Of a stretch of 52,778 nt of DNA, positions 13,114-49,041 are shown one piece after another; the stretch's first letter is position 1, and the number at the start of each line of letters is the position of its first letter. Made by a program: the position numbers and the translations under genes. This DNA is from a virus. The notes below the pieces were generated by a model, which had not been told where the DNA came from, made no database searches, and saw nothing but the letters and a program-made list of their open reading frames with translations. The DNA lies in IMG/VR virus record IMGVR_UViG_3300035158_000865, positions 1 through 52,778 of that record, one strand, 5' to 3'.

Positions 13114-13353
13114 TTAATATGTAAGAGTCTTTAGTTTTTCTCTAACCTCATCAAATTTTTTCATTTCTTTCCTAGAAAGCTTGTTATTTGTTATATACTT
13201 ATCTAATATATCAGTAGCTTCTTTAGAATTTTTACTAACAGAAGCTAAAGTTAATGCTATCTTCTTAGCATTTTGATTAAAGAAACCTTCAGGTGGTCTC
13301 CATTTGCCCTCATTAACGAGTATATGGTCTATTTTTTCTATTATATCTTTCAT
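13114..13353 (-). CDS. small protein with capsid-targeting-like N-terminus
   Basis: 79 aa. The N-terminus (MKDIIEKIDHILVNEG) has the amphipathic helix ending in hydrophobic-x-Glu seen on many proteins here and resembles the T4 capsid-targeting and prohead-protease site. The rest is a basic helical segment (NAKKIALTLASVSKNSKEA). It lies between two other virion-type genes. I infer an internal head protein. No family recognised. Confidence 0.5.
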   Translation of the reverse strand: MKDIIEKIDHILVNEGKWRPPEGFFNQNAKKIALTLASVSKNSKEATDILDKYITNNKLSRKEMKKFDEVREKLKTLTY

Positions 13354-13355
13354 AT

Positions 13356-13784
13356 CTATATCCTTATGAATAGTGGTATATCTCTTTTTGCTTTAGCCTT
13401 CCACATTTTATCTCTCTGTGGTTCAATTAGTTGTACACCTTTATCTCTTGTTACACAAATATTAATAGCATGTTCTAAATCCTTACCTGCAAATCTAACA
13501 CCCCATACTTGTCCAAAGGCCCATGCAAATCTTTCTTTTTCAGGAATTTTATTCAAGTTCTTATATCGTTCTTCAACAATATAAGCATGTAACACAAGAG
13601 CAAAATCATCACAGTCGAATATTGACCTTTGCCATTTGTACTTTTCAAATGCTGATTCCTTCAAATACTTTCTTACTTCTTTTTTCTTTGGCAACCAGTA
13701 GAATTCATCTGGCATTACAAAATTTCTGAAGTTGGGCCATACTCTATTAATCTCTCTTGCTACATCAATATGTGTAACTTTCAT
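13356..13784 (-). CDS. transglutaminase-like/cysteine-peptidase-like protein
   Basis: 142 aa. A DCDDFALVLHAY motif (Cys near residue 58), an EHAINI motif (His near 107) and LIEPQ (Glu near 121) give a Cys-His-acid order as in transglutaminase-like peptidases. W-rich segments fit that fold. Such proteins occur in phage structural operons, possibly for wall access. The lack of a clear signal peptide leaves the site of action open. The stop lies two bases before the next start region. The catalytic reading is inferred from motif order only. Confidence 0.45.
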   Translation of the reverse strand: MKVTHIDVAREINRVWPNFRNFVMPDEFYWLPKKKEVRKYLKESAFEKYKWQRSIFDCDDFALVLHAYIVEERYKNLNKIPEKERFAWAFGQVWGVRFAGKDLEHAINICVTRDKGVQLIEPQRDKMWKAKAKRDIPLFIRI

Positions 13785-13785
13785 A

Positions 13786-14010
13786 TTATGAACCGGCTCT
13801 CATCATATTGATTCCTATTTGTACAGCATCTTCTGTATCCTTAGGATTCTTTTTCTTTACAGCATTAATAAGTTTGTCAATAATACTGGTATCAGCTTTA
13901 CCGTGAATATCTTCAGCAGCATCTACCATTGCTTTTTTGACACCATTCCAATCAATTCCTTCTTCCCTAATAAGGAAAAGATCAATTCTCTCTAGCAGTT
14001 TCTTACTCAT
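13786..14010 (-). CDS. small protein with capsid-targeting-like N-terminus
   Basis: 74 aa. The N-terminus (MSKKLLERIDLFLIREEG) again ends in Ile-x-Glu and closely parallels MEILDRIDKVLNETG inside the DHH protein at 25171. The rest is helical (WNGVKKAMVDAAEDIHGKA). The protein lies in the head-gene cluster and has a good ribosome site. A packaged or core protein is inferred. Confidence 0.5.
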   Translation of the reverse strand: MSKKLLERIDLFLIREEGIDWNGVKKAMVDAAEDIHGKADTSIIDKLINAVKKKNPKDTEDAVQIGINMMRAGS

Positions 14011-14027
14011 TATTAAAACCTCCTTAG

Positions 14028-14549
14028 TTATATAGCAAATGGATTTCTTCTTGCTCCTTCTTTTTCATATTCTTCTGGATTTGTTTCTCTCCATTTATTC
14101 CAAGCTCTAACGAACTTACCACTCATTAGAAGTATCCAGAATATTGCATATATTAGTATTATTCTACCGCTTCCACCTGCTCCCTGTATCACTTTATCTA
14201 ATTCCATCCAACATTTCAATGCTGGGTAGAAAGCTAAAGTTGGGAAAGCTTCCTGTTTAAGCAAATCCCAGTAATGTGAAAAATCTTCTTTCAATGTACC
14301 TACTTGTTTAGGTCTACCTTTACTTATCTCTTCAAGACTTCTATAATTAGTTTTGAAATATTTATTGATAATCCTTAGAGCTTTATCCTCTAAGTTATTA
14401 TCCTTCAATATATCAACAAGCTTCTTCCATTCTTTTTGGAACATGCTCTTTATAGTATTGAAAGGTTTGTTAGCTATTCTTTTTAAGTCCTTAGCAACAT
14501 TACCTTCGTTTAGTATCCGTTCACCTTCTAAGTAGGTTTCAAAATTCAT
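14028..14549 (-). CDS. membrane protein with capsid-targeting-like N-terminus
   Basis: 173 aa. It begins MNFETYLEGERILNEG (Leu-x-Glu site), followed by a basic helical region and one hydrophobic segment near residues 127-147 (RIILIYAIFWILLMSGKF). An injected protein that enters the membrane, or a virion protein used in DNA entry, would fit. Function unknown. Its start overlaps the stop of the upstream 148-aa gene. Confidence 0.5.
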   Translation of the reverse strand: MNFETYLEGERILNEGNVAKDLKRIANKPFNTIKSMFQKEWKKLVDILKDNNLEDKALRIINKYFKTNYRSLEEISKGRPKQVGTLKEDFSHYWDLLKQEAFPTLAFYPALKCWMELDKVIQGAGGSGRIILIYAIFWILLMSGKFVRAWNKWRETNPEEYEKEGARRNPFAI

Positions 14550-14995
14550 TATCTCTCCTCTTTTTCCATCTTCACACTAATATTTATATTTTTAGTCTTT
14601 TTATCTGATAATTCTAATCGTATAGATGGTTTTATTTCTTTATTTTCCTCTATAAATTTAACCTCTACCGATTTATTAACTTCCCTATCTTCTTTCAATA
14701 CCGCTTTTATTGAATATGTTTCTCCAATTAAATCATAATCAACATGTAAAAGTTCTTGTATTCTATCATCAGGAAGTACAAATACCCTTGCTGTTCCTCT
14801 ATCTTCTAATGAAAAACGGTTTAGTTCTGGTATATCAAATACTATATTTTCACCATCCATATTGCTATAATTGAAATGTGCATATCCTTCACCTAGCAAA
14901 GGAAATAAAATATAAGCATCAAGTGTTTTCTTTACATTTAATAGAGTTACTCCGATAGATAATGAAAATCTCTTATTTGTTGGTAATCTTCTCAT
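14549..14995 (-). CDS. beta-rich protein of unknown function
   Basis: 148 aa, predicted mostly beta strands (FSLSIGVTLLNVKKTLDAYI, then IRLELSDKKTKNINISVKM). It is tightly packed, with its start at the stop of the 66-aa gene and its stop overlapping the next ATG. It resembles phage neck or tail accessory proteins in general style only. An internal TATAAATA on the minus strand (14588-14581) could be a late promoter for the membrane-protein gene that follows, or chance. Confidence 0.45.
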   Translation of the reverse strand: MRRLPTNKRFSLSIGVTLLNVKKTLDAYILFPLLGEGYAHFNYSNMDGENIVFDIPELNRFSLEDRGTARVFVLPDDRIQELLHVDYDLIGETYSIKAVLKEDREVNKSVEVKFIEENKEIKPSIRLELSDKKTKNINISVKMEKEER

Positions 14996-15195
14996 TAATC
15001 CTCATCAACTAAATCTATTTTTATTTTTGGTATATTATTCTTCTTCGCTTCGTTTATTCTTATTTTATTATCATAGTAAACAATGGGCCTTCTTTTCGGT
15101 TCAAACCAATCACCACCACTAAGGTCTCTAGGTAATGAACCTGTATCTCTTCTTCTACATATCATTCCTTTTGTAGCTAAACTTATAGCACTCAT
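14995..15195 (-). CDS. small basic protein, possible virion component
   Basis: 66 aa. Residues 1-35 (AISLATKGMICRRRDTGSLP, then GGDWFEPKRRP) are rich in Arg and Gly, and the end is acidic. It overlaps the upstream Ig-like gene by 4 bases and abuts the next gene, so it is translationally coupled. Not recognised. Confidence 0.5.
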   Translation of the reverse strand: MSAISLATKGMICRRRDTGSLPRDLSGGDWFEPKRRPIVYYDNKIRINEAKKNNIPKIKIDLVDED

Positions 15196-22528: not shown

Positions 22529-23203
22529 ATGAAATTTTCAAAATTCTTAAATGAATTAGCAAATGAGAAGTATGGTAAGGGAATTACCTTTATAGATATT
22601 GATGAAACTATATTCCACACTTTCGCAAAAATCTATGTGATGAAAGATGGTAAAGTAGTAAGAAAGCTAAACAATCAAGAATTTAATACATACGAATTAC
22701 AGCCTGATGAATCTTTCGATTTTAGAGAATTTAGAAACGCTAAAATGTTTAAAAAAACATCAATACCTATACCTAAGACAGTTAAAAGAATAAAAAGAAT
22801 GTTACAAAATATTAAAAGAAGGGGTTCTAAGATTATATTTTTAACTGCTAGAAGTGATTTTGATAATAAGACTGAATTTCTAAGTACTTTCCAAAGACAT
22901 GGTATACCAATGGCTGATATATATGTAGAGAGAGCAGGTAATAGACAAGAAGGTACAGTAGCCAAGGCTAAGAAAAATATAGTCATGGAATATCTTAACA
23001 CCGGAGAATTTAGAAGAGTTAGGCTTATAGATGATGATATGACTAATTTAAAAAAGTTTCTTAGTATTGCTAAAAATATTACTCAACATATAATAGATAA
23101 AGTAAAAGATAGATATAATATAAAAGAAGGAGAAGTTGATAATATAATTGAATTTTTTGCTTTACATGTTAAAGAGAATGGAAAATTAGAGAAAATAAAC
23201 TAG
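22529..23203 (+). CDS. HAD-family phosphatase with capsid-targeting-like N-terminus
   Basis: 224 aa. It starts MKFSKFLNEL, the recurring motif. HAD motif I is FIDIDETIFH (Asp23, Asp25), motif II is FLTARSD, and motif III/IV is LIDDDM. This matches 5'-nucleotidase/polynucleotide 3'-phosphatase-type HAD enzymes. First gene of a rightward operon in which most members carry similar N-termini. If the first nine residues are a capsid-targeting tag, the enzyme would be injected with the DNA. The substrate cannot be read from sequence. Confidence 0.75.
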   Translation: MKFSKFLNELANEKYGKGITFIDIDETIFHTFAKIYVMKDGKVVRKLNNQEFNTYELQPDESFDFREFRNAKMFKKTSIPIPKTVKRIKRMLQNIKRRGSKIIFLTARSDFDNKTEFLSTFQRHGIPMADIYVERAGNRQEGTVAKAKKNIVMEYLNTGEFRRVRLIDDDMTNLKKFLSIAKNITQHIIDKVKDRYNIKEGEVDNIIEFFALHVKENGKLEKIN

Positions 23204-23699: not shown

Positions 23700-23882
23700 A
23701 TGATACTTAAAAAAGTAATAGAGCTTTTTAAAGAACCTCAGGAAAATGGTAAACACCTAGAAATTATTAAGAAAAGAAGTAGCAGGAATGAAAAAAAAAT
23801 TAATGAACTCTTTGAAAAGGTAAATGGTGGAAAAATTAATGAGGCTGAAAAATTTTCTTGCGGAACAAAGATCAGAGCCTAA
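23700..23882 (+). CDS. small basic helical protein
   Basis: 60 aa, mostly charged helix (KKRSSRNEKKINELFEK), with an AGGAG site ten bases before its start. It overlaps the next gene by 44 bases in another frame, so one of the two starts may be wrong; the next gene is better supported by its N-terminal motif. Function unknown. Confidence 0.4.
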   Translation: MILKKVIELFKEPQENGKHLEIIKKRSSRNEKKINELFEKVNGGKINEAEKFSCGTKIRA

Positions 23883-24393
23883 TAATCCCTTCTTAATATT
23901 TGAAGCCTTAAATTTGAATGAAGAAGTATCAGATAAAACATTCAAAGTACTAAAGAGGGCGGCTAAAAAAATAGGATTTAGGCTAAAAAGATCGGATAGT
24001 TTGATGGATTATATTAAAAGAGCAGGTAGTGGTATTGAAAATCTGCTTAGATATGCAACTTTGTATGCTTTTGCAAGAGATCCTAAACAGAAGAAGGAAT
24101 TTGTAGAGGATATGAGAAAATCCATGAAAACTATGAGTAAAAAGGAGGTTATCTCTTTCTTTATGCAATTAGATAGAGCAGCATTAGGTATTACTGCTAT
24201 ACCTAGACATGTTCTAATGAGTGTATTTGGATTAGAAATAGCTACTTATAATCAATGGATGGAAGATGTTGATTATATGAAGAAAGAGATTAAACATATA
24301 AGAAAAACTCTAAAAAGGATGGGAGATACCGAAGCTGAATTAAAAGCCTTAGATAAATTTGAGAAAAAAATATCAAAACTGGGAAAAGTATAA
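23839..24393 (+). CDS. helical protein with capsid-targeting-like N-terminus
   Basis: 184 aa if started at 23839, which gives MRLKNFLAEQ, the recurring motif with a Leu-x-Glu site. An in-frame ATG at 23824 would add five residues and hide it. A second Leu-x-Glu (LNLNEE) lies near residue 29. The remainder is basic and helical (VLKRAAKKIGFRLKRSD), as in phage internal or prohead-core proteins. The stop overlaps the next ATG. A virion-internal role is inferred. Confidence 0.55.
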   Translation: MRLKNFLAEQRSEPNNPFLIFEALNLNEEVSDKTFKVLKRAAKKIGFRLKRSDSLMDYIKRAGSGIENLLRYATLYAFARDPKQKKEFVEDMRKSMKTMSKKEVISFFMQLDRAALGITAIPRHVLMSVFGLEIATYNQWMEDVDYMKKEIKHIRKTLKRMGDTEAELKALDKFEKKISKLGKV

Positions 24394-24668
24394 TGAAAAA
24401 ATTAGATATTACTGTGAATAAGTACTTGAGCAATAATTTATTAAACGAGAAGAATCTGAAAAGTGTTGTTGGTATGCCTATAATAACAACCAGAGCAACA
24501 AAACTAAAGGATGGTACTAAGATACCTCCAAAGACTAGAGGTGTTGTGTTTAAAGATTTAGGTGATAAAGCAATGGTAGATGTTGAATTAGTAAAGGAGT
24601 ATGATGGTAAAGCTAAATCCTTTACTAAGAGGGTGGTAATGCCGAAGAAAGCGTTGGCATTAGGATAG
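24393..24668 (+). CDS. small basic protein with cleavage-site-like N-terminus
   Basis: 91 aa. The N-terminus MKKLDITVNKYLSNNLLNEK contains NKYL and ends in Leu-x-Glu. The rest is a small beta domain (VGMPIITTRATKLKDGTKIP, then DLGDKAMVDVELVKEYDG), SH3-like in appearance. It overlaps the upstream stop (TAATG), so the two are coupled. A packaged DNA-binding or core protein would fit. No family recognised. Confidence 0.5.
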   Translation: MKKLDITVNKYLSNNLLNEKNLKSVVGMPIITTRATKLKDGTKIPPKTRGVVFKDLGDKAMVDVELVKEYDGKAKSFTKRVVMPKKALALG

Positions 24669-36493: not shown

Positions 36494-36494
36494 G

Positions 36495-37034: not shown

Positions 37035-37045
37035 TTAATCTCCTC

Positions 37046-38392
37046 CTACTCTTTTACTTTTCTTGAATCTCCAGATATCTTAGCTGAATCCATCCAATCA
37101 TCTAATTCTGTGCTATCCCACATTCTTAATGAATTTTTATCATAATATAACTTATCCACTTCTCCTACTCTACCGCCCAATCTATTTTTGACTATTTTAT
37201 AAAAAAGTTCTCCCTCATATATTATTTTATCTTCATCTGTTCCATATATGCTAAGAAAATCAGCTGTTGCGGGAACACCCATACTCTCAGAAGTATAATT
37301 GAAATCTACTTCATCAAAAGCAACAAAACTTCCTTCTCTATTAAGCTGACTTACTGAAACAACAGGCATTTCAAATTCAAATGACAAAGCTCTTAACTCT
37401 TCTGCTATTCTCTTTACATCTGAATACATATTACTACTTTTGTTGGTAATAGATGGTTTCATTAAATTTATGTAATCAACGTAAAGTATAGATGGTATTA
37501 TACCTCTCATTTTTAATTCTCTAAGGTAACTTTTTATATCAGCAGTGGAACCCTCACCTGTGGGAAACTGTTTGATAAAAAGATTACCTCTACCCTCTTT
37601 GTTTTTAATCTCTTTAAGTTTCTTAGCTAGTTCTTTAGTCACTTTTCTAGAAGTATATATTCTATTAATATTTAAATCTGTAAAAATACTATCAAACCTC
37701 TGTGCAAATGCATATTCAGACATTTCCAGACTTGTTAAAACAACATTCAAGCCGTTCAGAACTTGTCTAGCTGCAAAGTTAGCTAAAGTATTAGACTTGA
37801 AGCCATGTATTTTTGCTAGAATTACTGATAAAGTGAAGGGAGGAAAACCACCATTTATATATTCATCAAACTGTGGATAATAAGTAGGTACTCTAATATC
37901 TCCTTGTGACATTATTTTCTTTAATCTACTAGATAAGTTATTGAAATAATCTAGTCCTAAATCCATCTTTATGTCTTTACATAAAGCATCTTCAACAAGA
38001 CTTCTAATCTTATTTAAGTTTTCATATTCACCTTCTTCAATTATATCTATGGAATCCCTTATAGCACTTTTTATAGCCTTGTCTTTCAGAAATAAATTAG
38101 TATTGTCTATCAAAAAGTCATAACCACTTATTACATCAAAATCTATAGATTCCACTTCATCAAATATTTCTTTTATACCCTCCTTTTCTTTACCGAATGA
38201 GTTTATAACAACATCTTTTGAGGGTATATCATTATATTCATTTATATAATCAGAAATATATTTAAAAAGTTTACCTATATTTGGATCATCGAAATAATCT
38301 TCTTTTAAAACTCTAGATGATAAAACTAAGAAATCTTTATTGAGTAGTGAAGACTTTATTATTAATTTTTCTAAAAAATCATAATCCATCAT
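37046..38392 (-). CDS. 41: replicative DNA helicase (DnaB/T4 gp41-like)
   Basis: 448 aa. The N-terminal domain is helical. The RecA-like core has a non-standard Walker A (LAKIHGFKSNTLANF, Lys199 and Ser200), the LEMSE segment at 222-226, Walker B ILYVDYINLM (302-311) and SVSQLNREG (motif H4). It unwinds the parental duplex ahead of the polymerase as a hexamer. The odd P-loop G-F-K-S, in place of G-K-S/T, may reflect a divergent subfamily. It follows the Cys-rich 123-aa gene directly. Confidence 0.85.
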   Translation of the reverse strand: MMDYDFLEKLIIKSSLLNKDFLVLSSRVLKEDYFDDPNIGKLFKYISDYINEYNDIPSKDVVINSFGKEKEGIKEIFDEVESIDFDVISGYDFLIDNTNLFLKDKAIKSAIRDSIDIIEEGEYENLNKIRSLVEDALCKDIKMDLGLDYFNNLSSRLKKIMSQGDIRVPTYYPQFDEYINGGFPPFTLSVILAKIHGFKSNTLANFAARQVLNGLNVVLTSLEMSEYAFAQRFDSIFTDLNINRIYTSRKVTKELAKKLKEIKNKEGRGNLFIKQFPTGEGSTADIKSYLRELKMRGIIPSILYVDYINLMKPSITNKSSNMYSDVKRIAEELRALSFEFEMPVVSVSQLNREGSFVAFDEVDFNYTSESMGVPATADFLSIYGTDEDKIIYEGELFYKIVKNRLGGRVGEVDKLYYDKNSLRMWDSTELDDWMDSAKISGDSRKVKE

Positions 38393-38393
38393 A

Positions 38394-38765
38394 TTATACT
38401 TCCTCGAAATCTGGACATTTTAGTAAATCTATTTTTGAACTTTGTTTACATTCTTTAGAACACTTGATACATTTACTATTTAGTTTAGACCACCAGTTTC
38501 GTTCAAAGGAATCAGCATCTTTTTCTGATGTATCTAATATGTATACACTATCAGCTTTCAATTTGTCAAGACCCAAACTTCTTACCACAAGAGGATTATC
38601 CTTGTATTTCTTTAAAAATCTTTTCAGAGTTACATAATCAGACACGTTTTCCACGTCTGACAACCTCTTTATTTCCTGGCTCTTATAAAATCTACCCTTA
38701 CTAATTTTACCTGTGTACCATTTGTTTTTTCTTCTCACCACTGCTTCTATCTTTTTAGCTGACAT
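38394..38765 (-). CDS. small protein with C-terminal Cys cluster
   Basis: 123 aa from ATG at 38765, chosen because an AAGGAGAGG site lies just upstream; a longer reading from GTG at 38786 lacks one. The N-terminal 40 residues are basic. The C-terminus CIKCSKECKQ plus a later Cys forms a probable zinc site. First gene of the leftward replication operon, so its product may act early. No family recognised. Confidence 0.6.
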   Translation of the reverse strand: MSAKKIEAVVRRKNKWYTGKISKGRFYKSQEIKRLSDVENVSDYVTLKRFLKKYKDNPLVVRSLGLDKLKADSVYILDTSEKDADSFERNWWSKLNSKCIKCSKECKQSSKIDLLKCPDFEEV

Positions 38766-38797
38766 ATACCTCTCCTTACAAAACACAGTTTTTACCT

Positions 38798-38826
38798 ATT
38801 ATACACCCACAAATGTTAAAAGTAAA
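38798..38826 (-). promoter_or_regulatory. leftward sigma70-type promoter
   Basis: On the minus strand, TTTACT (38826-38821), a 17-bp spacer and perfect TATAAT (38803-38798) lie about 35 bases upstream of the Cys-cluster gene. It probably drives the leftward replication operon early in infection. Confidence 0.75.
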
Positions 38827-38828
38827 TA

Positions 38829-38857
38829 TTTACATGTAAGATTTTTTATTGTATAAT
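38829..38857 (+). promoter_or_regulatory. rightward sigma70-type promoter
   Basis: TTTACA (38829-38834), a 17-bp spacer and perfect TATAAT (38852-38857) lie 20 bases upstream of the exonuclease ATG and its AAGGAGGAGG site. Its -35 box is two bases from that of the leftward promoter. Confidence 0.8.
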
Positions 38858-38878
38858 ATAAAAAGGAGGAGGATAATT

Positions 38879-39430
38879 ATGTCTAGAAAAAGAGTAGATA
38901 AAATAGTAGTGGTTGACATAGAAGCAACTTGCTGGGAGGGTAAGGCTCCTGAGAACCAAAAGAATGAAATAATAGAAGTTGGAATATGTACACTAGATGT
39001 AAGTACTTACCAGATAGAAGATGTTGACGGTATAATTATAAAACCTAAGTATTCAAAAGTAAGTGAATTTTGTACCAGCCTAACAGGACTTACACAGGAA
39101 ATAGTAGATAAAGGATGTAGTTTTCAAGAAGCATGTAAAATCCTAAGGTCAAAGTACAGGACTAAGCTAAGAGCTTGGGGAAGCTGGGGTGATGCTGATA
39201 GGATGTACTTTGTTAGGTCTTGTGAATTATTTGGTACTAAGTATCCTTTCTCAGGCTCCCATATAAATATAAAATCTCTGTTTTCCATAACTAATAATAT
39301 ATATAGAGAATTAAGCATGAAGAAAGCTATGAATTATGCAAAATTGGATTGGGAAGGCAGACATCATTGTGGTAAAGATGATGCGAAAAATACTGCAAAA
39401 CTTCTAAAAACTATTCTACCTGAGAGATAA
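38879..39430 (+). CDS. DEDDh 3'-5' exonuclease (ERI1/KapD-like)
   Basis: 183 aa from ATG at 38879; an upstream in-frame ATG lies inside the promoter. Motif I is VVDIEATCWEG (Asp, Glu), motif II WGSWGDADRMYF (Asp), and motif III HHCGKDDA (His, Asp). The ATCW pattern resembles ERI1/KapD-type RNA-trimming exonucleases more than DnaQ proofreading subunits. It could degrade RNA or DNA ends in early infection. First gene of the rightward operon with UvsW. Confidence 0.8.
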   Translation: MSRKRVDKIVVVDIEATCWEGKAPENQKNEIIEVGICTLDVSTYQIEDVDGIIIKPKYSKVSEFCTSLTGLTQEIVDKGCSFQEACKILRSKYRTKLRAWGSWGDADRMYFVRSCELFGTKYPFSGSHINIKSLFSITNNIYRELSMKKAMNYAKLDWEGRHHCGKDDAKNTAKLLKTILPER

Positions 39431-39453
39431 ATAGTAAAGAGGTATATGATAAG

Positions 39454-39870
39454 ATGGATATTGATGTTGATAAAATATTAAATAAATTAAGAGAAGATTA
39501 TCCTATAGAGGAAGAAATAAAATTTTGTGAATTTGATTTACAAGATAAGTTAAAGGATAACTCTTTTAAAGTAATAAGATATAGAGACATATATGATAAG
39601 GAGAGAGCTAAATTAGAGTATATTGAGGAACTCATGGATAAACTAATAGGAGAAAGATATGATTATTATAGGTTTGATTATGATAAGGCATTAGATAAAA
39701 CAGAAATAAAGAATTATTATATTCCAAAGGACGAAAAAGTTTTAAGAATGAAGAAAATAATAAGAAAACAAAAAATAAAAGTTGATTTCTTTGATATGTG
39801 TATTAAGGCGTTACAGACACAAGGCTGGAATATGAAACACTTTTGGGAAACAGTTAAGGGAGGACTATAA
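39454..39870 (+). CDS. charged helical protein of unknown function
   Basis: 138 aa, highly charged helices with alternating acidic and basic residues (KLKDNSFKVIRYRDIYDKER). The stop overlaps the next ATG (TAATG), so it is coupled to the membrane/coiled-coil gene. No recognised domain. Confidence 0.5.
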   Translation: MDIDVDKILNKLREDYPIEEEIKFCEFDLQDKLKDNSFKVIRYRDIYDKERAKLEYIEELMDKLIGERYDYYRFDYDKALDKTEIKNYYIPKDEKVLRMKKIIRKQKIKVDFFDMCIKALQTQGWNMKHFWETVKGGL

Positions 39871-40235
39871 TGACAACAAAAACCGGAATTAATAAACGAT
39901 CTATAGCTATAATTACAAGTATACTTACTATTATAGGAATGATAGTAACAGGTGTTTGGCAACTAGATGCGAGAATGGATAACAAAATAGAGAAAGAATT
40001 GATAACTTTTGAACAAAAGGCTGGTATGGTTTTTGATAAGATCCAAAGAACACAAGATATAAGATATTACAATCTTATAATAACAACTCTTACTGAAAAA
40101 AAGGTTAGACTAGAAGAAGAAATAAAAATTGAACCGGAAAACCCAAATAATAAATTAAAAGAGCATAAGTTAGGTATGATAAATAAAAAAATTGATAGAT
40201 ATCAAGATAGACTTGACAGGTTGTTAGAAGAATAA
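39870..40235 (+). CDS. membrane-anchored coiled-coil protein
   Basis: 121 aa. A hydrophobic segment (IAIITSILTIIGMIVTGVW, about residues 12-30) is followed by a long charged helix. It is a single-pass membrane protein with most of its mass on one side. It is coupled at both ends by TAATG overlaps to its neighbours. An anchor or entry-phase membrane role is possible. Confidence 0.5.
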   Translation: MTTKTGINKRSIAIITSILTIIGMIVTGVWQLDARMDNKIEKELITFEQKAGMVFDKIQRTQDIRYYNLIITTLTEKKVRLEEEIKIEPENPNNKLKEHKLGMINKKIDRYQDRLDRLLEE

Positions 40236-41680
40236 TGGAAGAGATAAATATAGAAAAATTTGATGATTTGAGTATTAAAATAGATACAGATGACTATCAA
40301 TATCTCAATGATTTAAAAGAGTATTTTACTGATTATGTTCCTAACTTTCAGTTTATGCCACAATACCAATGTGGTGGCTGGAATGGTAAGACTTCAATGC
40401 TAAACCCTATGGACAAATCTTTACCATTTGGTCTATTCATGGACTTTCTAAAATTTCACAATAAGTACTATCCATTTAAAAAATTGAATATAGAGAAGGA
40501 TGTAAAAAATATTTTTAAAGGCTGTGAACCTGATTTTAAATGGGACCTAGAATTAAAGCCATATGATTTCCAGGAAGAGTGTATAAAAGCAGCATTGAAA
40601 TACTCTAAAGGTATTATACGATCAGCAACAGCTAGCGGAAAGTCTTTAATGATAACCTATATAATTAAAACTTTGAAAGAAAAAGGCTGTTTAGGTAAAT
40701 GTATTATAATTGTACCTAGTTTATCTCTGATAGAACAATTTGTTGGTGATATAAAGGATTATGGTTTTGAAATTGATATAGGTAAAGTAAATTCAAAGAA
40801 AAAGGAATGGGATAAAACTTTAGTTATATCAACATGGCAAACACTAGCTAAAAATCATGATGTTCTTAATAATTATAACACAGTAATAGTAGATGAAGTT
40901 CACGGAGCAAAAGCTCATGAATTGAAAAAAATTCTATCTAATTGTACTAGAGCTAAATATAGACTAGGTTTTACTGGTACTCTACCGACAGCTAAAGTTG
41001 ATTTATGGAATATAAAATCTTTTTTAGGACCTGTTATAAAAGACTATCCAGCAGGATATCTAGCAGATAAAGGTTATATAGCTAAATGTAATGTTAATAT
41101 GCTATATATAAATTACAATACCGGTTATAATGGTTTTTATGATGATATAAAAGATAATTTATTCCGAAATCCATATAGATTAGAAGTCTTGGATAATATA
41201 ATAAGGATGTTAGAAAATAAAGGTAATGCGCTAATACTTGTAGGTAAAGTAGAAAAGGAAGGTGAATTTTTAGAAGAATATTTGAAGACATCTAAGAATG
41301 AAAAAAAGTTAGCTTTTCTATCCGGTAAGGATGATGTTTCTAGAAGAGAGAAATGGAGAAGGAGATGTAATTATGGTAAAGGTATATGCTTGATAGCTAC
41401 TTATGGAATTTTTCAAGCAGGTATCAACATACCATCACTAAAGTATATAATAATGGCATCACCTTTCAAAAGTAAAATAAGAGTATTGCAAAGTATAGGA
41501 AGATCATTAAGAAAGCATGCTAGTAAAGCTAATGGAGCCCAAATTTTTGATTTGGTTGATGAGACAAAATATTTTTCAGACCATGGTTCAAAAAGATTAA
41601 GGTACTATAATTCTGAGAAATTTGATGTTAATGAAATTTTATTAGAGGAAGGAAATCCTATACAAATAGATAATATATAA
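40235..41680 (+). CDS. uvsW: UvsW-like superfamily 2 helicase
   Basis: 481 aa, near T4 UvsW (503). Motif I is SATASGKSLMI (131-140), motif II VDEVHGA, motif III GFTGTLPT, and motif VI SIGRSLRKH. The N-terminus resembles the UvsW N-terminal domain. UvsW remodels branched DNA and D-loops and helps switch from origin- to recombination-dependent replication. It starts at the stop of the membrane gene (TAATG). Confidence 0.9.
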   Translation: MEEINIEKFDDLSIKIDTDDYQYLNDLKEYFTDYVPNFQFMPQYQCGGWNGKTSMLNPMDKSLPFGLFMDFLKFHNKYYPFKKLNIEKDVKNIFKGCEPDFKWDLELKPYDFQEECIKAALKYSKGIIRSATASGKSLMITYIIKTLKEKGCLGKCIIIVPSLSLIEQFVGDIKDYGFEIDIGKVNSKKKEWDKTLVISTWQTLAKNHDVLNNYNTVIVDEVHGAKAHELKKILSNCTRAKYRLGFTGTLPTAKVDLWNIKSFLGPVIKDYPAGYLADKGYIAKCNVNMLYINYNTGYNGFYDDIKDNLFRNPYRLEVLDNIIRMLENKGNALILVGKVEKEGEFLEEYLKTSKNEKKLAFLSGKDDVSRREKWRRRCNYGKGICLIATYGIFQAGINIPSLKYIIMASPFKSKIRVLQSIGRSLRKHASKANGAQIFDLVDETKYFSDHGSKRLRYYNSEKFDVNEILLEEGNPIQIDNI

Positions 41681-41722
41681 ATACAGGTGGAAGTTGATAT
41701 TATAATAAAGAGGTAATTTAGC

Positions 41723-42268
41723 ATGATTCTAGATTTAGCAAAAACAAAGAGTATGACGTTCTCTTTAGATATTGATGGTGCTGATATCAAAGAACATAAG
41801 TCTTTCTTATCAATAGCAATGAATAATTTTAATTTAGAAATACCAATGGTTTTAGAAGAGGGTAAACTTAAAGTTTCTATACCTCCTCTAAAAGAGTTAA
41901 AAAACCATATACCAGAAAATAAAAAACTGAAATTTAAAATCTTCTCAATAATAGGTGAAAATTATTTTGAGCCTTATGAATCTGAAATGAAAGTAAAAGA
42001 AGAACCAAAACTTAATATAGAACCTGATGAGGAGAAAGAGGAGAAAGAAGAGAAGAAAACTATTGATGAGAAGAAAGAAAAGAGTGGTAATGAGAAAAAA
42101 GAAAATAAATCAGAGAAGAAAACTAAATTTAGAGCTGTTTTAGAAACAGAAAGGGATAGAAAAGAGAAGAAAAAAGAAATAGAAAAAGAGGAAGTGAAAG
42201 AGGAAGTGAAAGAGGAAAATAATAACAGAAAAGAAAAATCCAAGTTTTCTAGACTCCTAAAAGGATAA
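41723..42268 (+). CDS. possible prohead core/scaffold protein
   Basis: 181 aa. Residues 1-90 form a beta domain (FSLDIDGADIKEHKSFLSIA, then FKIFSIIGENYFEPYESEM). Residues 95-181 are almost entirely Lys and Glu (for example KEEVKEEVKEENNNRKEK), ending KFSRLLKG. This composition is usual for phage scaffold or core proteins. No relation to a particular T4 protein is established. Confidence 0.5.
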   Translation: MILDLAKTKSMTFSLDIDGADIKEHKSFLSIAMNNFNLEIPMVLEEGKLKVSIPPLKELKNHIPENKKLKFKIFSIIGENYFEPYESEMKVKEEPKLNIEPDEEKEEKEEKKTIDEKKEKSGNEKKENKSEKKTKFRAVLETERDRKEKKKEIEKEEVKEEVKEENNNRKEKSKFSRLLKG

Positions 42269-42331: not shown

Positions 42332-42985
42332 TTATGCGTTTCCTACTTCTTCTGAGAATTTAATAACCATTTTCATAAACTTCTTATATACTTTATGGTT
42401 AGGTCCAAAGACTCTATAATATCTCTTTATTGTATGTGATTCTCTATATATTAACATTTCTATAACAGCATCTTGTGCTAACGCCTGTATCTCATGCCTA
42501 TCTGATAAATAATCTTCTTCAGAATATTCACCCTCAATACTACCTGTTTCAGGTCCTTCCCAAGATTTACCTTTAGATGCTTCTCCTTGAGATAAATGTA
42601 TTAGTTCATGGATAAACAATTCCCACATATTAGAGAAAAATAAGTTTGTTTCTATATTATAGAACTTTCTTAATTTTTGTGGGTCTCTATATCTTCTGAA
42701 AAATTTACTTGCTCCTTTTTTTACATAAAATAGTATATTTTTAGATTTTCCAACTTCTGCACCTTTAAACCATTTTTGTACTTCACCTTTTACTCTTGTA
42801 CGTTTAAATGACATATTTTCAGACTTAAATATACCATTAAGTATTTTTATTAGAGTATCATCTGTTACATCCCAATCATGTTTTTGCATTATTCTAGCCA
42901 TTTCACCAAGATGATCCTCAATAATACCTTTAGCTTGTTTCAAGGTAGGTTTTGTTATTTCATTTAGATACTTATTTAATCTCAT
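42332..42985 (-). CDS. zincin metallopeptidase with capsid-targeting-like N-terminus
   Basis: 217 aa. It starts MRLNKYLNEI. The zinc motif HELIH (126-130) lies in WELFIHELIHLSQGE; HE at 164-165 (SDRHEIQALA) could supply the third ligand. The rest is helical and basic. Last gene of the leftward cluster whose members share this N-terminus. A peptidase delivered with the genome could cleave a host protein early. The target is unknown. Confidence 0.75.
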   Translation of the reverse strand: MRLNKYLNEITKPTLKQAKGIIEDHLGEMARIMQKHDWDVTDDTLIKILNGIFKSENMSFKRTRVKGEVQKWFKGAEVGKSKNILFYVKKGASKFFRRYRDPQKLRKFYNIETNLFFSNMWELFIHELIHLSQGEASKGKSWEGPETGSIEGEYSEEDYLSDRHEIQALAQDAVIEMLIYRESHTIKRYYRVFGPNHKVYKKFMKMVIKFSEEVGNA

Positions 42986-43533
42986 TTTATTCTTCTTGAA
43001 AACTGTACCTTATGTTTTTTATTAAACAAAGAAATACTTTTCACTATTATTTTTGGTAACTTAACTCTCTCTTCTATTTCTGAAAGTAAACCTTTTGATA
43101 ATACATCTTTTTCTAATGTTATCAAACTTACATGAGGTCTCATTCCACCAGGAAAAGTCCTTATAGAATTAGGAATTTCACTATATATATCACTGAATAT
43201 ATCTTTATACTTCTGATTTGATTTATATTCTATAGCTATAAAATCTTTACCAGTTATGGAACCATATAACTTTACCAACTCTTTAGGTTTGAACCTTACT
43301 TGGATTTTTATATCTTGGATTATTCTATTAAGTTTGTCTTTTTCTATAGGTGATATTATTTGTGCAACACTTATATGTGGATTACCTGTAAGAACTTGAT
43401 GTTTTATGTCCGCATTGGTTAGATATTTACTTATTTCATTTTGAACACCTCTAAGCGTGCTTCCATCAACATCAAATGCTATTAAGGTTTTTTCCATTTT
43501 TTTAGCTTCTTTTATGTACTTGTAAAGCTTCAT
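42982..43533 (-). CDS. 2H phosphoesterase (2'-5' RNA ligase-like)
   Basis: 183 aa. N-terminus MKLYKYIKEA. The two signature motifs are PHISVA (His53, Ser55) and PHVSLI (His134, Ser136). The family includes 2'-5' ligases and cyclic phosphodiesterases acting on RNA ends, cyclic oligoadenylates or ADP-ribose phosphates. In T4-like phages such enzymes can cleave 2'-5' or cyclic signalling nucleotides. It overlaps its neighbours by four bases on each side. Confidence 0.85.
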   Translation of the reverse strand: MKLYKYIKEAKKMEKTLIAFDVDGSTLRGVQNEISKYLTNADIKHQVLTGNPHISVAQIISPIEKDKLNRIIQDIKIQVRFKPKELVKLYGSITGKDFIAIEYKSNQKYKDIFSDIYSEIPNSIRTFPGGMRPHVSLITLEKDVLSKGLLSEIEERVKLPKIIVKSISLFNKKHKVQFSRRIK

Positions 43534-43810: not shown

Positions 43811-44686
43811 CTATTTATACCATAAAAGTTTTTTGATTTCTGATAAATTATACATCAAAGAATTAACTAAATAATACTTCTTACATTTAAACATTATTTC
43901 ATTATCTGATTTTATTGCTTTAGATAAATTATTATTTTTATAACTTCCCACTATTTCTATAAATTTTCCTTCTCTTTCATTTCTTAATTCTTCTAACTTA
44001 TCAATCCACCAATCATCAAAACTCACGCTTGGAACCCATTCAAGATCATTATAAACCATATCCTCAGCTTCATCTCTTAATTCTTTTTTATTATTAAATT
44101 CCCAGTTTTCATTCTCCTCAAGTTCCCTCATTATATCATCTATAGCATCTTCTAATGTCTCATATTCATTACCTTGTACAAGGTAATGACCATCACCTGA
44201 TGCTTCACCATATTTACGTTCATATTCCTCATCATAATCTTCTGGATAAAATTCATCATCTGGAAAACTTGCAGCTTCTAATTCATCATATAGGTCTTTT
44301 ATATAAGGTGACCATATAAAATCAAATCTGCCTATAGGAAAAAACAAATAAACATCACCATAACCTGATGCCGTGGAACGCTTACCTGTAGCAAAAATAC
44401 CCTCCGATCTTACGTTCCAACCAAATTCTCTTCTGAATAATTCATCAAATTCATCATGTAATTTAATGGGTATATCAACTGGTTTTCTATCTTTTCTAGG
44501 TTTGATTTGATAAAGTCCATCCATAGGATGTGAACCCTTAACTCTTCTAACACCCCTATAAACAAAATCTTTTACTCTTTTTGTTTCTCGTAGAAATGGG
44601 TCACAATCTTTTCTAAGAATATCAGTTAATTGCTCTATATTACTACCATAATCTTTAATCTCTTTTAAATATTTACCTAATCTCAT
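43811..44686 (-). CDS. ADP-ribosyltransferase-like protein with capsid-targeting-like N-terminus
   Basis: 291 aa beginning MRLGKYLKEI. FVYRGVRRVK (Arg44) and GIFATGKRSTASGYG (97-110), followed by VYLFFPIGRFDFIWSP, recall the R-S-E order of ADP-ribosyltransferases (Arg, then the S/T-S strand). A third catalytic Glu is not clear. An acidic insert occupies residues 130-200. In T4 the internal protein Alt is a packaged, injected ADP-ribosyltransferase that modifies host RNA polymerase; this protein would fit that role. The assignment is tentative. Confidence 0.5.
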   Translation of the reverse strand: MRLGKYLKEIKDYGSNIEQLTDILRKDCDPFLRETKRVKDFVYRGVRRVKGSHPMDGLYQIKPRKDRKPVDIPIKLHDEFDELFRREFGWNVRSEGIFATGKRSTASGYGDVYLFFPIGRFDFIWSPYIKDLYDELEAASFPDDEFYPEDYDEEYERKYGEASGDGHYLVQGNEYETLEDAIDDIMRELEENENWEFNNKKELRDEAEDMVYNDLEWVPSVSFDDWWIDKLEELRNEREGKFIEIVGSYKNNNLSKAIKSDNEIMFKCKKYYLVNSLMYNLSEIKKLLWYK

Positions 44687-44994
44687 TTCTTTGCTATCTC
44701 GAAATATATAGTATTTGTTGGTCTCTCTACATCAGTCTTGAAAGTATAATCTTCCATATTATCTACCATATCTACAAGGAGGTTAGTGAAATTAAACAAA
44801 TCATCGTTATAGATAAATGTAATACCTTTTTTTCTGTTAGGAGAAGCTTCAACAGTAACTTCATCTTCATCATAAAAACCAACTTGTGATTTTAGTACAA
44901 ATGAAGTTTTTTTAGGTCTCTTTATTAACTTCTCTACCATATTCTTTTCTTTACTAGTTATTTTAGCCTCATTTAGAAAATTTCTAAATTTCAT
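44683..44994 (-). CDS. small protein with capsid-targeting-like N-terminus
   Basis: 103 aa beginning MKFRNFLNEA. The remainder is a small mixed domain (VLKSQVGFYDEDEVTVEAS, then ITFIYNDDLFNFTNLLVD). It overlaps the ADP-ribosyltransferase-like gene by four bases and follows the kinase gene closely. Function unknown; packaging inferred from the N-terminus. Confidence 0.55.
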   Translation of the reverse strand: MKFRNFLNEAKITSKEKNMVEKLIKRPKKTSFVLKSQVGFYDEDEVTVEASPNRKKGITFIYNDDLFNFTNLLVDMVDNMEDYTFKTDVERPTNTIYFEIAKK

Positions 44995-45005: not shown

Positions 45006-45695
45006 TTAACTTCTATACCATATAGAAACAGTTCTCTTAATTTCATCCACAGAATGCAAATGGGGTGATAAGTACTTCCAACCATTTTCTCTCATAGTTT
45101 CTATATAGTGTTTACCTATAGTATTCTTTACATCTGAATTATAGAATGATGATAATTTTTTGAATGATTTCAATATCATATCATTATTTAATTCACCTTC
45201 ATCATTCTTCACTGTTACAAATACTGGAAATTTGGTTTTATAGAATGACTTCATTCTACTTACCTCATTATAAAACTCAATTATTACTTTCTCTGGAACT
45301 TTTCTATTCCTTTGTCTAACCCTCTCTATAGCTGTCTCTAAAGATGTCTCTACAAAAACCATAGCCATATCATATCCAAAAGATTCCAACAAACCATATC
45401 TCTTCAATACTGAACTTGGATTAGCTGATGTTCCATCAACAGCTAGAGGTAACATAGAATTTATATATAGAACTAATTGATTCTTAGTAAGTGTTTTAGC
45501 TCTATCAAGAAAACTTATATCATTATCAAAATGCTCAATAAATTTATCAGTGTTAACTACTCTTGGTTCTACCTGTCCAGACTTAATTCTATTCAAAGTA
45601 TAACTTTTACCAGAACCAGGATGTCCTGCCATAAAAGCTGTTTTGAATATACCAGCATCATTAATACCTTCGTTTATAAACTTCTCTAATTTCAT
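45006..45695 (-). CDS. P-loop kinase (zeta-toxin-like) with capsid-targeting-like N-terminus
   Basis: 229 aa beginning MKLEKFINEG. Walker A is GHPGSGKS (24-31), then VNTDKF and VDGTSANPSSVLKRYG, and a basic VRQRNRK lid, as in zeta-toxin or polynucleotide-kinase-type enzymes. The kinase could phosphorylate UDP-sugars or nucleic-acid ends. The tag would place it in the head. It overlaps the ParB-like gene by four bases. Confidence 0.75.
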   Translation of the reverse strand: MKLEKFINEGINDAGIFKTAFMAGHPGSGKSYTLNRIKSGQVEPRVVNTDKFIEHFDNDISFLDRAKTLTKNQLVLYINSMLPLAVDGTSANPSSVLKRYGLLESFGYDMAMVFVETSLETAIERVRQRNRKVPEKVIIEFYNEVSRMKSFYKTKFPVFVTVKNDEGELNNDMILKSFKKLSSFYNSDVKNTIGKHYIETMRENGWKYLSPHLHSVDEIKRTVSIWYRS

Positions 45696-46162
45696 TTAGA
45701 TATATCCACCATTAGAGCTTTTGGAATTACTCCTTTTATAAAAGCAACATCTAATCTAGTATTACCAGCCATTATCCACATATCTCTACTTCCTTTTAGT
45801 ATAATAGGGTAAGGAATTTTCTCATTATTCTCTATTCCTCTTTCTATCCTTTTAACATCTCTAGGTCTTTTATAATTAGATACTAAATCTTCCAATTCTT
45901 CTATAGAAGAAGTTCTACTTCTATTATTTATCTTTCTATCTAGAGAATCGGTAATAGTAACTACTCTAGCACCCTTCAGAGAATTTTTGAAATGCTTATA
46001 GTTTTCAAATATAGGAAATCTCGCTCCTATTATATCTACCCTTCTCAACCATTTAGTATTTTCCTTCTTTTCATATTCTCTAAAATCTTCTTTCATAGTT
46101 GATTCTGAAGGAAAAGACCAACTATTATATATATCCTCATTTAGAAATTTATTTAATTTCAT
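45692..46162 (-). CDS. ParB/sulfiredoxin-like protein with capsid-targeting-like N-terminus
   Basis: 156 aa beginning MKLNKFLNED. The C-terminal MAGNTRLDVAFIKGV motif, followed by ALMVD, resembles the GNHR/GNTR site of ParB- and sulfiredoxin-type nucleotide-binding folds, some of which are nucleases or NTPases. The middle is basic and helical. It starts at the stop of the isochorismatase-like gene. The enzymatic reading is moderate. Confidence 0.6.
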   Translation of the reverse strand: MKLNKFLNEDIYNSWSFPSESTMKEDFREYEKKENTKWLRRVDIIGARFPIFENYKHFKNSLKGARVVTITDSLDRKINNRSRTSSIEELEDLVSNYKRPRDVKRIERGIENNEKIPYPIILKGSRDMWIMAGNTRLDVAFIKGVIPKALMVDISK

Positions 46163-46746
46163 TAGTATACAAACTTCTTTACTAGCTTATAATTAATATT
46201 AAAAGTACTCATAAGTATCTCAATCTCTTTAAGACATTCGTTTCTACCACCACCGACTAGGTAAGAACCTTTCCATTTTCTTAACTTGTCAACTCTTATT
46301 GTTGGTGGTAAGAATATTGGATCATTTCTGAACTCATTTCTCCACATATCAGGAAATTTCTCTTCCCATTCTTCTTCTGGTATATCTCTAGAATCATAAA
46401 CTCTTTTTTCTAACATGAACCTAAGAGCTCTTTTTATATCTCTTTCATCAGCACCCATATCCATCCAGGCTCGAAAGAAACCATATCCTTTATCTACCCA
46501 AGTGAAATCTGGAAACCTCTCAGGCTCAAGACCATTATCTAGGTAAAATTCTAATATTTCCTCTTTACTATCTGATCCTACAGTATCAGGACCATTGAAG
46601 AAACAAAGTATCTTTTTGTTTTCGTTGAGAAATTCTGTAAATAAACCTAAGTTAAACGAAATATATTTTCTATATAATGGTTGAACATCAACCACTATAA
46701 CATTTTTCTTTGTTTCTTCATTTATTAAATACTTCTTTAGTTTCAT
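46162..46746 (-). CDS. isochorismatase-like protein with capsid-targeting-like N-terminus
   Basis: 194 aa beginning MKLKKYLINEE. VIVVDVQPLYRKY and a late GGGRNECLKEIEILMSTFNI segment recall cysteine hydrolases of the isochorismatase/nicotinamidase type (Asp near the start, Cys near the end). The middle diverges and has a Trp-rich region. NAD or pterin-like substrates could be cleaved. It overlaps the MscS-like gene by 29 bases. Assignment tentative. Confidence 0.5.
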   Translation of the reverse strand: MKLKKYLINEETKKNVIVVDVQPLYRKYISFNLGLFTEFLNENKKILCFFNGPDTVGSDSKEEILEFYLDNGLEPERFPDFTWVDKGYGFFRAWMDMGADERDIKRALRFMLEKRVYDSRDIPEEEWEEKFPDMWRNEFRNDPIFLPPTIRVDKLRKWKGSYLVGGGRNECLKEIEILMSTFNINYKLVKKFVY

Positions 46747-47077: not shown

Positions 47078-47083
47078 ATATTA

Positions 47084-48358: not shown

Positions 48359-48386
48359 TTTACATCCTCGGAATATATGTTATAAT
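48359..48386 (+). promoter_or_regulatory. rightward sigma70-type promoter opposing the lysis operon
   Basis: TTTACA (48359-48364), 16-bp spacer, perfect TATAAT (48381-48386). It points away from the endolysin gene. A 7-bp perfect inverted repeat (GGAATAT 48370-48376, ATATTCC 48385-48391) overlaps the -10 box and could be an operator. Confidence 0.65.
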
Positions 48387-48474
48387 ATTCCTATGTCCGC
48401 GAGCGGAGAGAGAAAGGTTCCGGATTATGATACATGGAAATTTACTAACTCCAAATTCCAAAAATACTCATTAT

Positions 48475-48482
48475 TATTTATA
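48475..48482 (-). promoter_or_regulatory. possible late promoter for the lysis operon (TATAAATA)
   Basis: An exact TATAAATA on the minus strand lies about 165 bases upstream of the endolysin ATG and just after the terminator of the preceding gene. Chance occurrence is not excluded. Confidence 0.35.
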
Positions 48483-48510
48483 TAAAAGTTATTATAAAAT
48501 AGAAGCACAA

Positions 48511-48542
48511 AAAACCTCCTAATTTATTGGTTAGGAGGTTTT
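48511..48542. terminator. strong bidirectional terminator
   Basis: A perfect 12-bp stem (48511-48522 with 48531-48542) and 8-base loop have T-runs on both strands. It would end the minus-strand 90-aa gene and the plus-strand small RNA. Confidence 0.9.
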
Positions 48543-48549
48543 TATATTT

Positions 48550-48822
48550 CTAATCAAATTGTTTGAATAAAAGCCTTTTGCGGTACTCCTTTTTGATATG
48601 TTCTTGTATTGTATTAAGTACAGATTCCCTCAATTCACTTTCTAATAAATCAAAATCAATATAAACATTCCTATCATTTGGTTTTGATTGTTCCACTACT
48701 CTTATTTTTCTTGCTAGGTCATATACCTCGGAACTATTAAGTAAAGCATCTATTTCCACATTTACTTTATTTTTATCAGCTACTATGTTATAACCATTTT
48801 TCTTTATGAACAATTTAGGCAT
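48550..48822 (-). CDS. small protein of unknown function
   Basis: 90 aa. A short beta start (KLFIKKNGYNIVADKNKV) is followed by charged helices. Its stop lies 8 bases before the terminator. It is the last protein gene of the operon that contains the tRNA array. No family recognised. Confidence 0.5.
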   Translation of the reverse strand: MPKLFIKKNGYNIVADKNKVNVEIDALLNSSEVYDLARKIRVVEQSKPNDRNVYIDFDLLESELRESVLNTIQEHIKKEYRKRLLFKQFD

Positions 48823-48837
48823 TTTGTTATATCCTTT

Positions 48838-49041
48838 CTATACAAGTTTTGTTCCGATTGTATTTCTTATAAGTTTCTTAAACTCTTCCCAATCTTCATC
48901 CTTTACGATTTTCTCCATCTTTTTAATTTCTGCTCTTGATGCTTTTTTGTAGAATTCTACCATTTCTTGAAAACCAATATTATGAGGATAAGCAGATTCA
49001 TTTTTACTCAGGTGTTCTAAGATATGTTTTTCAAATTTCAT
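48838..49041 (-). CDS. small protein, weak capsid-targeting-like N-terminus
   Basis: 67 aa beginning MKFEKHILEHLSKNE, which has an Ile-x-Glu at residues 7-9 as in the tagged proteins. The rest is a charged helix (FYKKASRAEIKKMEKIVK). It lies between the tRNA array and the 90-aa gene. Function unknown. Confidence 0.5.
   Translation of the reverse strand: MKFEKHILEHLSKNESAYPHNIGFQEMVEFYKKASRAEIKKMEKIVKDEDWEEFKKLIRNTIGTKLV

Follow-up and report, generated by a model that had tools for sequence, protein, structure and literature searches.

A T4-type capsid-targeting-like leader shared by otherwise unrelated proteins of an environmental phage fragment and its relatives

IMGVR_UViG_3300035158_000865 is a viral record of 52,778 bases in the IMG/VR database. 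It is one fragment with no larger assembly, and the whole record, referred to below as the window, is on sequence grounds a fragment of a T4-like phage. Ten of 76 window genes, hand-picked from the list of open reading frames (ORFs), encode proteins that start with the same kind of short peptide, which takes the form M-[KR]-[LF]-x-x-[FYH]-[LI]-x-E or is one residue longer and is termed the tag, or leader, here. This shared N-terminus is probably a capsid-targeting propeptide of the T4 type (we put the probability at about 0.86), and the best reading of the data would be an expanded T4-type internal-protein system with a cargo that is partly enzymatic. The principle is already known from T4 Ip1-3, from the polyvalent proteins of phages, from head-packaged ADP-ribosyltransferases (ARTs) and from a suggestion made for T4-like phages (PMC9026906); novelty, as far as the open-access literature shows, lies in the scale, in the enzymatic nature of the cargo and in the lineages, since in that literature no title or start of an abstract was found to describe such an expanded tagged set. 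A preliminary description of the window had proposed that these N-termini serve to package and inject a large set of effectors. The capsid-targeting part of that interpretation is well supported at the sequence level, by T4-like residue classes at equal distances from the terminal Glu, by the spread of the tag over 115 BLAST clusters and by a tagged array within a cluster of virion-protein genes in phage Atu_ph07; the interpretation overall is partly supported, and the label ‘effector’ is one that we infer from enzyme domains.

The tag is far more frequent at window N-termini than would be expected by chance. Matches were defined by the strict expression M[KR][LFIYWVM]xx[FYLWIH][LIVM]x(1,2)E, and the count of ten would be nine using first starts only, because the tagged start at 23839 is five codons downstream of the start of the longest ORF there (23824). 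When residues 2-13 were shuffled in all N-termini, the mean was 0.085 matches and the maximum three in 20,000 rounds, and internal 10-mers of the window proteins matched in five of 14,486 cases, equivalent to 0.026 per 76 genes. The corresponding DNA pattern occurs eight times in the window; 100 dinucleotide shuffles averaged 0.01 occurrences. Counting back from the terminal Glu as P1, the ten tags have Leu or Ile at P3 in every case, an aromatic residue at P4 in eight and Leu or Phe at P7 in nine, and the ten proteins that carry them fall in separate BLAST clusters. As had been claimed, codons differ between the tags (in 60 of 114 same-residue comparisons), and it is therefore the peptide that is kept. 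The expected absence of the tag from replication enzymes was likewise borne out, with none of the 20 genes of the polymerase/helicase block (28173 to 42268), polymerase included, matching the strict expression.

The conserved positions are those that matter in T4. The T4 record has MKTYQEFIAE at the start of both ipII and ipIII, and its gp23 contains SFLTEAEIGG, of which SFLTE is presumably the maturation site. When T4 residues 4, 7, 8 and 10 are counted from the Glu they become P7, P4, P3 and P1, the conserved positions of the tag. Mutagenesis of the T4 capsid-targeting sequence (CTS) has linked residues 4 and 7 to targeting and residues 8 and 10 to processing, packaging of IPIII needs only its first ten residues, and gp21 cleaves after L/I-x-E in T4 (PMC9026906). 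Across 239 nine-residue tags, P7 is mostly Leu or Phe, P4 Tyr or Phe, P3 Leu or Ile and P1 Glu; these frequencies are not evidence by themselves, because the positions formed part of the selecting pattern. The likeness to the T4 IPI-IPIII system thus lies in a short N-terminal leader common to otherwise unrelated proteins, in a hydrophobic P7, an aromatic P4, Leu or Ile at P3 and Glu at P1, and in the presence of gp21 and gp23 in some relatives. The differences are that the leader has ten residues in T4 and nine here, with other flanking residues (MKLxKYLNE), and that T4 has three tagged genes as against 10-17 in this 53-kb fragment. In T4 Ip1-3 the leader is the sole shared part and the proteins, which block different GmrSD enzymes, are reported to be restriction inhibitors (PMC12373910), whereas some of the cargo here has enzyme domains. 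Across related T-even phages ten or more internal proteins are known (PMC12373910), and the CTS has been suggested to be the means by which T4-like phages load various proteins (PMC9026906). In phiKZ-like giant phages (phiKZ, 201phi2-1 and SPN3US) many head proteins are also cut after Glu by a gp21-related protease; there the motif is S/A-x-E and the lineage another one, and a uniform nine-residue start is not described in the excerpt available (PMC9026906).

The tag is widespread in related environmental contigs. Scans of IMG/VR with its DNA pattern picked out 76 stretches with the Lys version and 93 with the Arg version, and in 204 loci (1.74 Mb, mostly selected by means of that pattern) 255 distinct ORFs carry the tag, or 247 without near-copies, against two for the reversed order. 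With the tag removed, the bodies fall into 115 BLAST clusters, of which 31 contain at least two sequences and 84 are singletons; these clusters reflect direct BLAST similarity, and some of the singletons may be chance matches. Tagged genes can form arrays, with nine each in G015 and the 11-kb contig G019 and ten in G028, and the set of tagged bodies varies from contig to contig. In 24 chosen records the pattern matched 111 times, in 22 IMG/VR contigs, and its reverse never; six of the 22 contigs, with 27 of the 111 matches, had been obtained through homology to the polymerase or to the 43811-44686 protein and were included because tags had already been seen, and sequence is shared between G003 and G005, G002 and G006, and G012 and G020. 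The phages Atu_ph07 and SCTP-2 gave no matches to the pattern because their leaders differ.

Searches that started from the protein bodies also led to tagged relatives. Leaderless profiles were used as queries, and the best 80 of at least 571 viral relatives were taken for the P-loop kinase and the best 80 of 372 for the HAD phosphatase. All but one of the 40 distinct HAD relatives carried the strict leader, as did 27 of the 39 kinase relatives, compared with 100 of 403 other ORFs at those loci, a control that includes many tagged neighbours and a few unfiltered homologs. Hydrophobic residues occupy P7 of the HAD leaders in 32 of 41 cases and P4 in 31 of 42; the corresponding counts are only 5 of 42 for P5 and 7 of 40 for P8. 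No relative of the HAD body was found in cultured phages at E<=1e-5. The kinase neighbourhood of phage HTVC008M (14 genes translated) shows no clear strict tag, and the kinase itself starts with MIPFILKE; that of a cultured relative, Methylophilales phage Melnitz, starts with MKTFAELQE.

The preliminary description had called for a search for a gp21-type prohead protease. The window yielded none, and nine of 38 pattern-bearing contigs carry both gp21 (Peptidase_S77) and gp23. All nine have a tagged ORF; five of them appear to be of one near-identical type (L112-L116), in which the tagged ORF MKLLKYINESFDKPYPF directly follows gp23. In contig G024, homologs of three window genes are found in the same order beside a module of portal, gp21, gp22 and gp23 genes, the gp20- and gp22-like identities being assumed from position. 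Near the inferred maturation site, gp23 reads FLTE in T4, FLME in G016 and G020, YLTE in G024, SINE in G008, PLME in Atu_ph07, MLKE in SCTP-2 and GMNE in G031, so that L/I-x-E occurs in seven of the eight compared (T4 included), as a raw count at sites placed by position. The N-termini of gp22-like scaffold and gp21-like protease proteins of relatives end in LxE-type motifs as well. The ORF at 27461-28009 (minus strand) of the window matches PHROGs named head maturation protease and ATP-dependent protease; it is read as a ClpP-like protease, and its product is not considered gp21-type because the S77 search of the window gave none.

A distant parallel exists in two cultured phages, Agrobacterium phage Atu_ph07 and Salicola phage SCTP-2, which both encode homologs of the 43811-44686 protein and possess gp21 and gp23. 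Ten consecutive Atu_ph07 genes, gp53-gp62, all start with M[KR]WxxLxE; they are linked by body similarity, several of them directly to the 43811-44686 protein. The DNA pattern of this type of start occurs eight times in the Atu_ph07 genome, twice outside the array, and its reverse is absent. In Atu_ph07 gp53 (L018 13805-16141; 778 amino acids) a single tag precedes a 43811-family domain joined to a zeta-type kinase domain; the window encodes these two as separate proteins, each of them tagged. In SCTP-2, MKINELLNE is the start of the homolog of the 43811-44686 protein, and MRISQLLKE and MKIQDLILNE are the starts of two genes with relatives in the Atu_ph07 set. Since the leaders of Atu_ph07 and SCTP-2 differ in this way, the tag changes from phage to phage, with the Glu retained together with a Leu located at P3 or beside it. 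The Atu_ph07 tRNA nucleotidyltransferase, gp18, is untagged, so this family is not tagged everywhere. Mass spectrometry of Atu_ph07 virions identified 131 proteins, 29 of them from CDS 31-76, a run of 46 genes (Attai et al., PMC6102473); the array corresponds to CDS 53-62 by gene order, an assignment with which gp2, gp4, gp18 and gp70 agree (PMC6102473). For a Sinorhizobium relative of Atu_ph07, the excerpt available (PMC11242549) contains no virion proteomics of its own.

Several observations weigh against a capsid-targeting role or against the generality of the tag. The body-first samples were confined to the best 80 relatives per body, some of which lie on contigs that the tag search had already found. 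Kinase leaders lack the position pattern, with hydrophobic residues at P7 in 26, P6 in 24 (nine of them Met), P4 in 27 and P5 in 6 of 50, and the kinase relatives that miss the strict leader have MKTFxxLQE-type leaders or are fused proteins in which the domain follows ..SVEE. A looser leader expression matched 61 of 62 and 48 of 49 homologs as well as 234 of 502 control ORFs, and because it did not separate the two it was replaced by the stricter one. Fifteen loci fetched through the polymerase included seven (4-8 kb each) that are tagless and three with a doubtful match only; the five polymerase loci among the 24 chosen records were, for that reason, a favourable choice. No gp21 was found in the window, a fragment in which gp23 was not searched for; neither gp21 nor gp23 was found in seven contigs obtained through homology to the polymerase or the 43811-44686 protein, nor in 29 of the 38 pattern-bearing contigs, all of which are fragments. 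In gp23, P4 is aromatic in only four of the eight sites, one has Met at P3, and the eight do not share one alignment column. Finally, 17 of the 46 products of CDS 31-76 were not found in Atu_ph07 virions, and those that were found need not include any of gp53-gp62 (PMC6102473).

If the leader is a capsid-targeting propeptide, it would dock each tagged protein onto the scaffold core of the prohead, a gp21-type protease would cut after its Glu during maturation, and the freed protein would stay in the head and enter the host with the DNA. An unlikely variant of this scheme is that the leader does target the prohead and is cut, and that the proteins are core or structural parts that shape or fill the head. 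T4 IPIII affects head assembly and internal proteins co-purify with gp22 (PMC9026906), and the gp22- and gp21-like N-termini mentioned above have similar endings; these points would suit structural proteins. Cargo with enzyme domains (kinase, HAD phosphatase, PolyA_pol nucleotidyltransferase, cyclic-phosphate receiver and CN hydrolase) would not, and the set of tagged bodies changes between contigs, unlike a conserved structural part, although many tagged bodies have no assigned function, including four of ten Pfam-scanned representatives.

It is very unlikely that the N-terminus is a signal for another place, such as the tail, the baseplate, the membrane or an intracellular phage assembly. 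Tagged genes do adjoin long ORFs at 15-22 kb, taken to be tail-fibre-like without a family search, and an endolysin gene with a possible holin gene at 47-48 kb; the positions nonetheless match those of the T4 CTS and the [LI]xE motif of gp23, and the terminal Glu is required for cleavage by the prohead protease and not for these alternatives. Most improbable of all is a shared start without any peptide function, either as a translation-initiation signal at the level of messenger RNA (mRNA) or as the trace of recent copying of upstream DNA. The AT-rich leader does sit right after the ribosome binding site, and DNA copying could spread it. Against this stand the synonymous codon differences and the untagged 20-gene block described above, variation that keeps the amino-acid class (although the pattern was selected for that), and the lineages with other leaders (MRWxQLTE, MKINELLNE), which keep P3 and P1.

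The tagged genes and the other features of the window are collected in Table 1. Nine of the fifteen tag starts claimed in the preliminary description match the strict expression (46746, 46162, 45695, 44994, 44686, 43533 and 42985 on the minus strand; 22529 and 23839 on the plus strand); amongst the other starts it had listed, those at 13353, 14010 and 14549 gained independent support, which those at 24393, 24685 and 25007 did not, and the leaders of these last three are only plausible. Two further leaders were found, a strict match at 49041 (minus strand) that had not been listed and an in-frame leader at 25318. The latter belongs to a second class of leader, MxILxxIDxYLNE-like, with 47 matches in the fetched loci against two for the reversed order, a count that includes one ORF twice and some matches that resemble other proteins. 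An ORF of locus L158 with residues similar to those that follow the 25318 leader starts at its own class-2 leader. Longer leader variants may add up to seven window genes to the ten strict ones. Comparison of 12 window proteins with seven from G024 gave three matching pairs; window genes 13114 and 12483 did not match the G024 genes at the equivalent positions.

Table 1. Tagged genes, candidate leaders and marker genes of the window
Feature	Coordinates	Strand	Remarks
Tagged ORF MKFEKHILE	48838-49041	-	Small body; clusters with two other tagged ORFs
Tagged ORF MKLKKYLINE (10-residue form)	46162-46746	-	Body NVIVVDVQPLY..; tagged homolog in L081; no Pfam or PHROG match
Tagged ORF MKLNKFLNE	45692-46162	-	Strict expression and DNA pattern; body without assigned function
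Tagged ORF MKLEKFINE, P-loop kinase	45006-45695	-	AAA_33 / Zeta_toxin; PHROG polynucleotide kinase; 12 further tagged homologs
Tagged ORF MKFRNFLNE	44683-44994	-	Small body; three tagged homologs
Tagged ORF MRLGKYLKE, phrog_11975 family	43811-44686	-	Largest tagged cluster (39 sequences)
Tagged ORF MKLYKYIKE	42982-43533	-	Two HxS motifs (residues 53 and 134); no Pfam or PHROG match
Tagged ORF MRLNKYLNE	42332-42985	-	Strict expression and DNA pattern; body without assigned function
Tagged ORF MKFSKFLNE, HAD phosphatase	22529-23203	+	Acid_phosphat_B; PHROG polynucleotide kinase
Tagged ORF MRLKNFLAE	23839-24393	+	Start 23839 within longer ORF 23824-24393
Variant leader MNFETYLEGERILNE	14028-14549	-	G024 homolog starts MRLEEYLNE; 41% over 165 amino acids from residue 1
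Class-2 leader MKDIIEKIDHILVNE	13114-13353	-	Matches class-2 expression
Class-2 leader MSKKLLERIDLFLIRE	13786-14010	-	Matches class-2 expression
DHH-domain ORF	25171-26721	+	In-frame class-2 leader MEILDRIDKVLNE at 25318
Possible leader MKIKEIVKKYLEE	25007-25168	+	Sequence only; hydrophobic-x-E motif
Possible long leader ending NLLNE	24393-24668	+	Sequence only; hydrophobic-x-E motif
Possible long leader ending RSINE	24685-25017	+	Sequence only; hydrophobic-x-E motif
Split T4-like DNA polymerase	28173-30811	-	Two ORFs, 28173-29051 and 29048-30811 (292 and 587 amino acids); untagged; negative control and lineage marker
gp2-like DNA end protector and gp4-like head closure	11514-12475	-	Homologous to genes beside the G024 head module

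Those bodies that can be recognised are enzymatic. A Pfam scan of ten window proteins found two families over the cut-off, the P-loop kinase (AAA_33 3.4e-9, Zeta_toxin 1.4e-8) and the HAD phosphatase (Pfam 5.7e-8, PHROG 3.4e-8), for which a profile search of the PDB gave nothing convincing. The DHH domain at 25171-26721 scored 1.1e-5 (26.1 bits), below its curated cut-off of 28.1. One tagged relative combines PolyA_pol, its RNA-binding domain and a sub-threshold HD domain and matches the tRNA nucleotidyltransferase PHROG at 7.2e-80; in others Pfam recognises a cyclic-phosphate receiver (2e-24), a CN hydrolase (7.6e-19), DUF5662 (1.2e-30) and, barely below the cut-off, DnaJ (2.9e-6). Of the ten tagged representatives scanned against Pfam, four had no family and one a weak sub-threshold match only. 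The enzymatic cargo thus comprises the P-loop kinase, the HAD phosphatase and a probable DHH protein in the window, and a tRNA nucleotidyltransferase, a cyclic-phosphate receiver, a carbon-nitrogen hydrolase and a probable DnaJ protein in relatives.

Two further window proteins gave structural hints. The model of the 43811-44686 protein has a predicted local distance difference test score (pLDDT) of 90. Foldseek found no match for it in the PDB at E<=0.001, and a PDB profile search gave nothing convincing and no link to an ART. In a second structural comparison the best match, at Z 5.9, was to an uncharacterised protein, and several toxins, which we take to be ARTs, were matched at Z 2.0-2.6, although Z values under 8 may mean little. 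The ADP-ribosyltransferase-like fold is a lead only, given the lack of a Foldseek match and Z values of only 2.0-2.6. Through these weak matches the largest tagged cluster, to which this protein belongs, may resemble T4 Alt, an injected ADP-ribosyltransferase; it differs in having no sequence or Foldseek link to an ART and in forming a tandem array of ten in Atu_ph07. The 42982-43533 protein (model pLDDT 50) has two HxS motifs, as found in 2H phosphoesterases. A PDB profile search gave nothing convincing for it and no similarity to T4 57B was found, so that the 2H-phosphoesterase-like pattern is not confirmed.

Since the recognisable cargo is enzymatic, its likely targets would be host RNA, proteins or defence signals, ahead of any phage gene expression. 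There are already broad proposals of injected ‘polyvalent’ proteins with several domains and of ARTs packaged in the head (PMC5512222, PMC9503650). Like the tagged proteins, polyvalent proteins have varied enzyme domains that are predicted to enter the host with the DNA (PMC5512222), and gp53 of Atu_ph07, with two domains behind one tag, is of that kind; in contrast, the domains described here are mostly separate proteins with one tag each. It is possible, on a more tentative footing, that phages of a broad T4-like group pack their capsids with an extensive, interchangeable enzyme set (kinase, HAD phosphatase, tRNA nucleotidyltransferase, cyclic-phosphate receiver and ART-like proteins) that would form an injected RNA-repair and host-modification kit, active before any phage transcript is made and blunting RNA-cleaving or signalling defences. 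RNA repair is a reading of the enzyme list.

The remaining content of the window bears on its lineage. The nearest polymerases in cultured phages are those of Pelagibacter phage Mosig and of cyanophages, at ~31% identity, and that of contig G028 is 58% identical. In four of five related records with the gene the polymerase is one open frame of 879-949 amino acids; in G028 it has 590. Two helicases are encoded in the window, and two ORFs of its replication block (31599-32714 and 33214-34494, minus strand) both belong to phrog_19197, a PHROG without assigned function. A phrog_1017 protein is encoded at 34680-35111 (minus strand); by our assumption it resembles a NADAR domain, with a possible link to ADP-ribose chemistry. 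There is a cluster of 17 transfer RNA (tRNA) genes at 49054-52562 (minus strand), and a small ORF at 11061-11222 (minus strand) contains an internal peptide repeat, LQFENTST. A nucleotide search of phage records gave no match to the middle 25 kb of the window. A late-promoter test with TATAAATA was uninformative, because ten window sites were found against 17.9 in shuffled sequence.

Taken as an expanded T4-type internal-protein system, the tagged set suggests that a T4-like virus may carry a prepared toolkit into each cell that it infects. If so, the first dozen residues would reveal which T4-like phage proteins are carried in the virion and are active from the moment of infection, and under the more tentative enzyme-kit reading the injected proteins could be recognised from genome sequence alone by the four-position core (P7, P4, P3 and P1). 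Many ‘hypothetical proteins’ of environmental phages would become testable candidates for early takeover or counter-defence, many natural leaders would be available for loading proteins into phage heads, and the T4 internal-protein idea would extend from small restriction inhibitors to an enzymatic payload.

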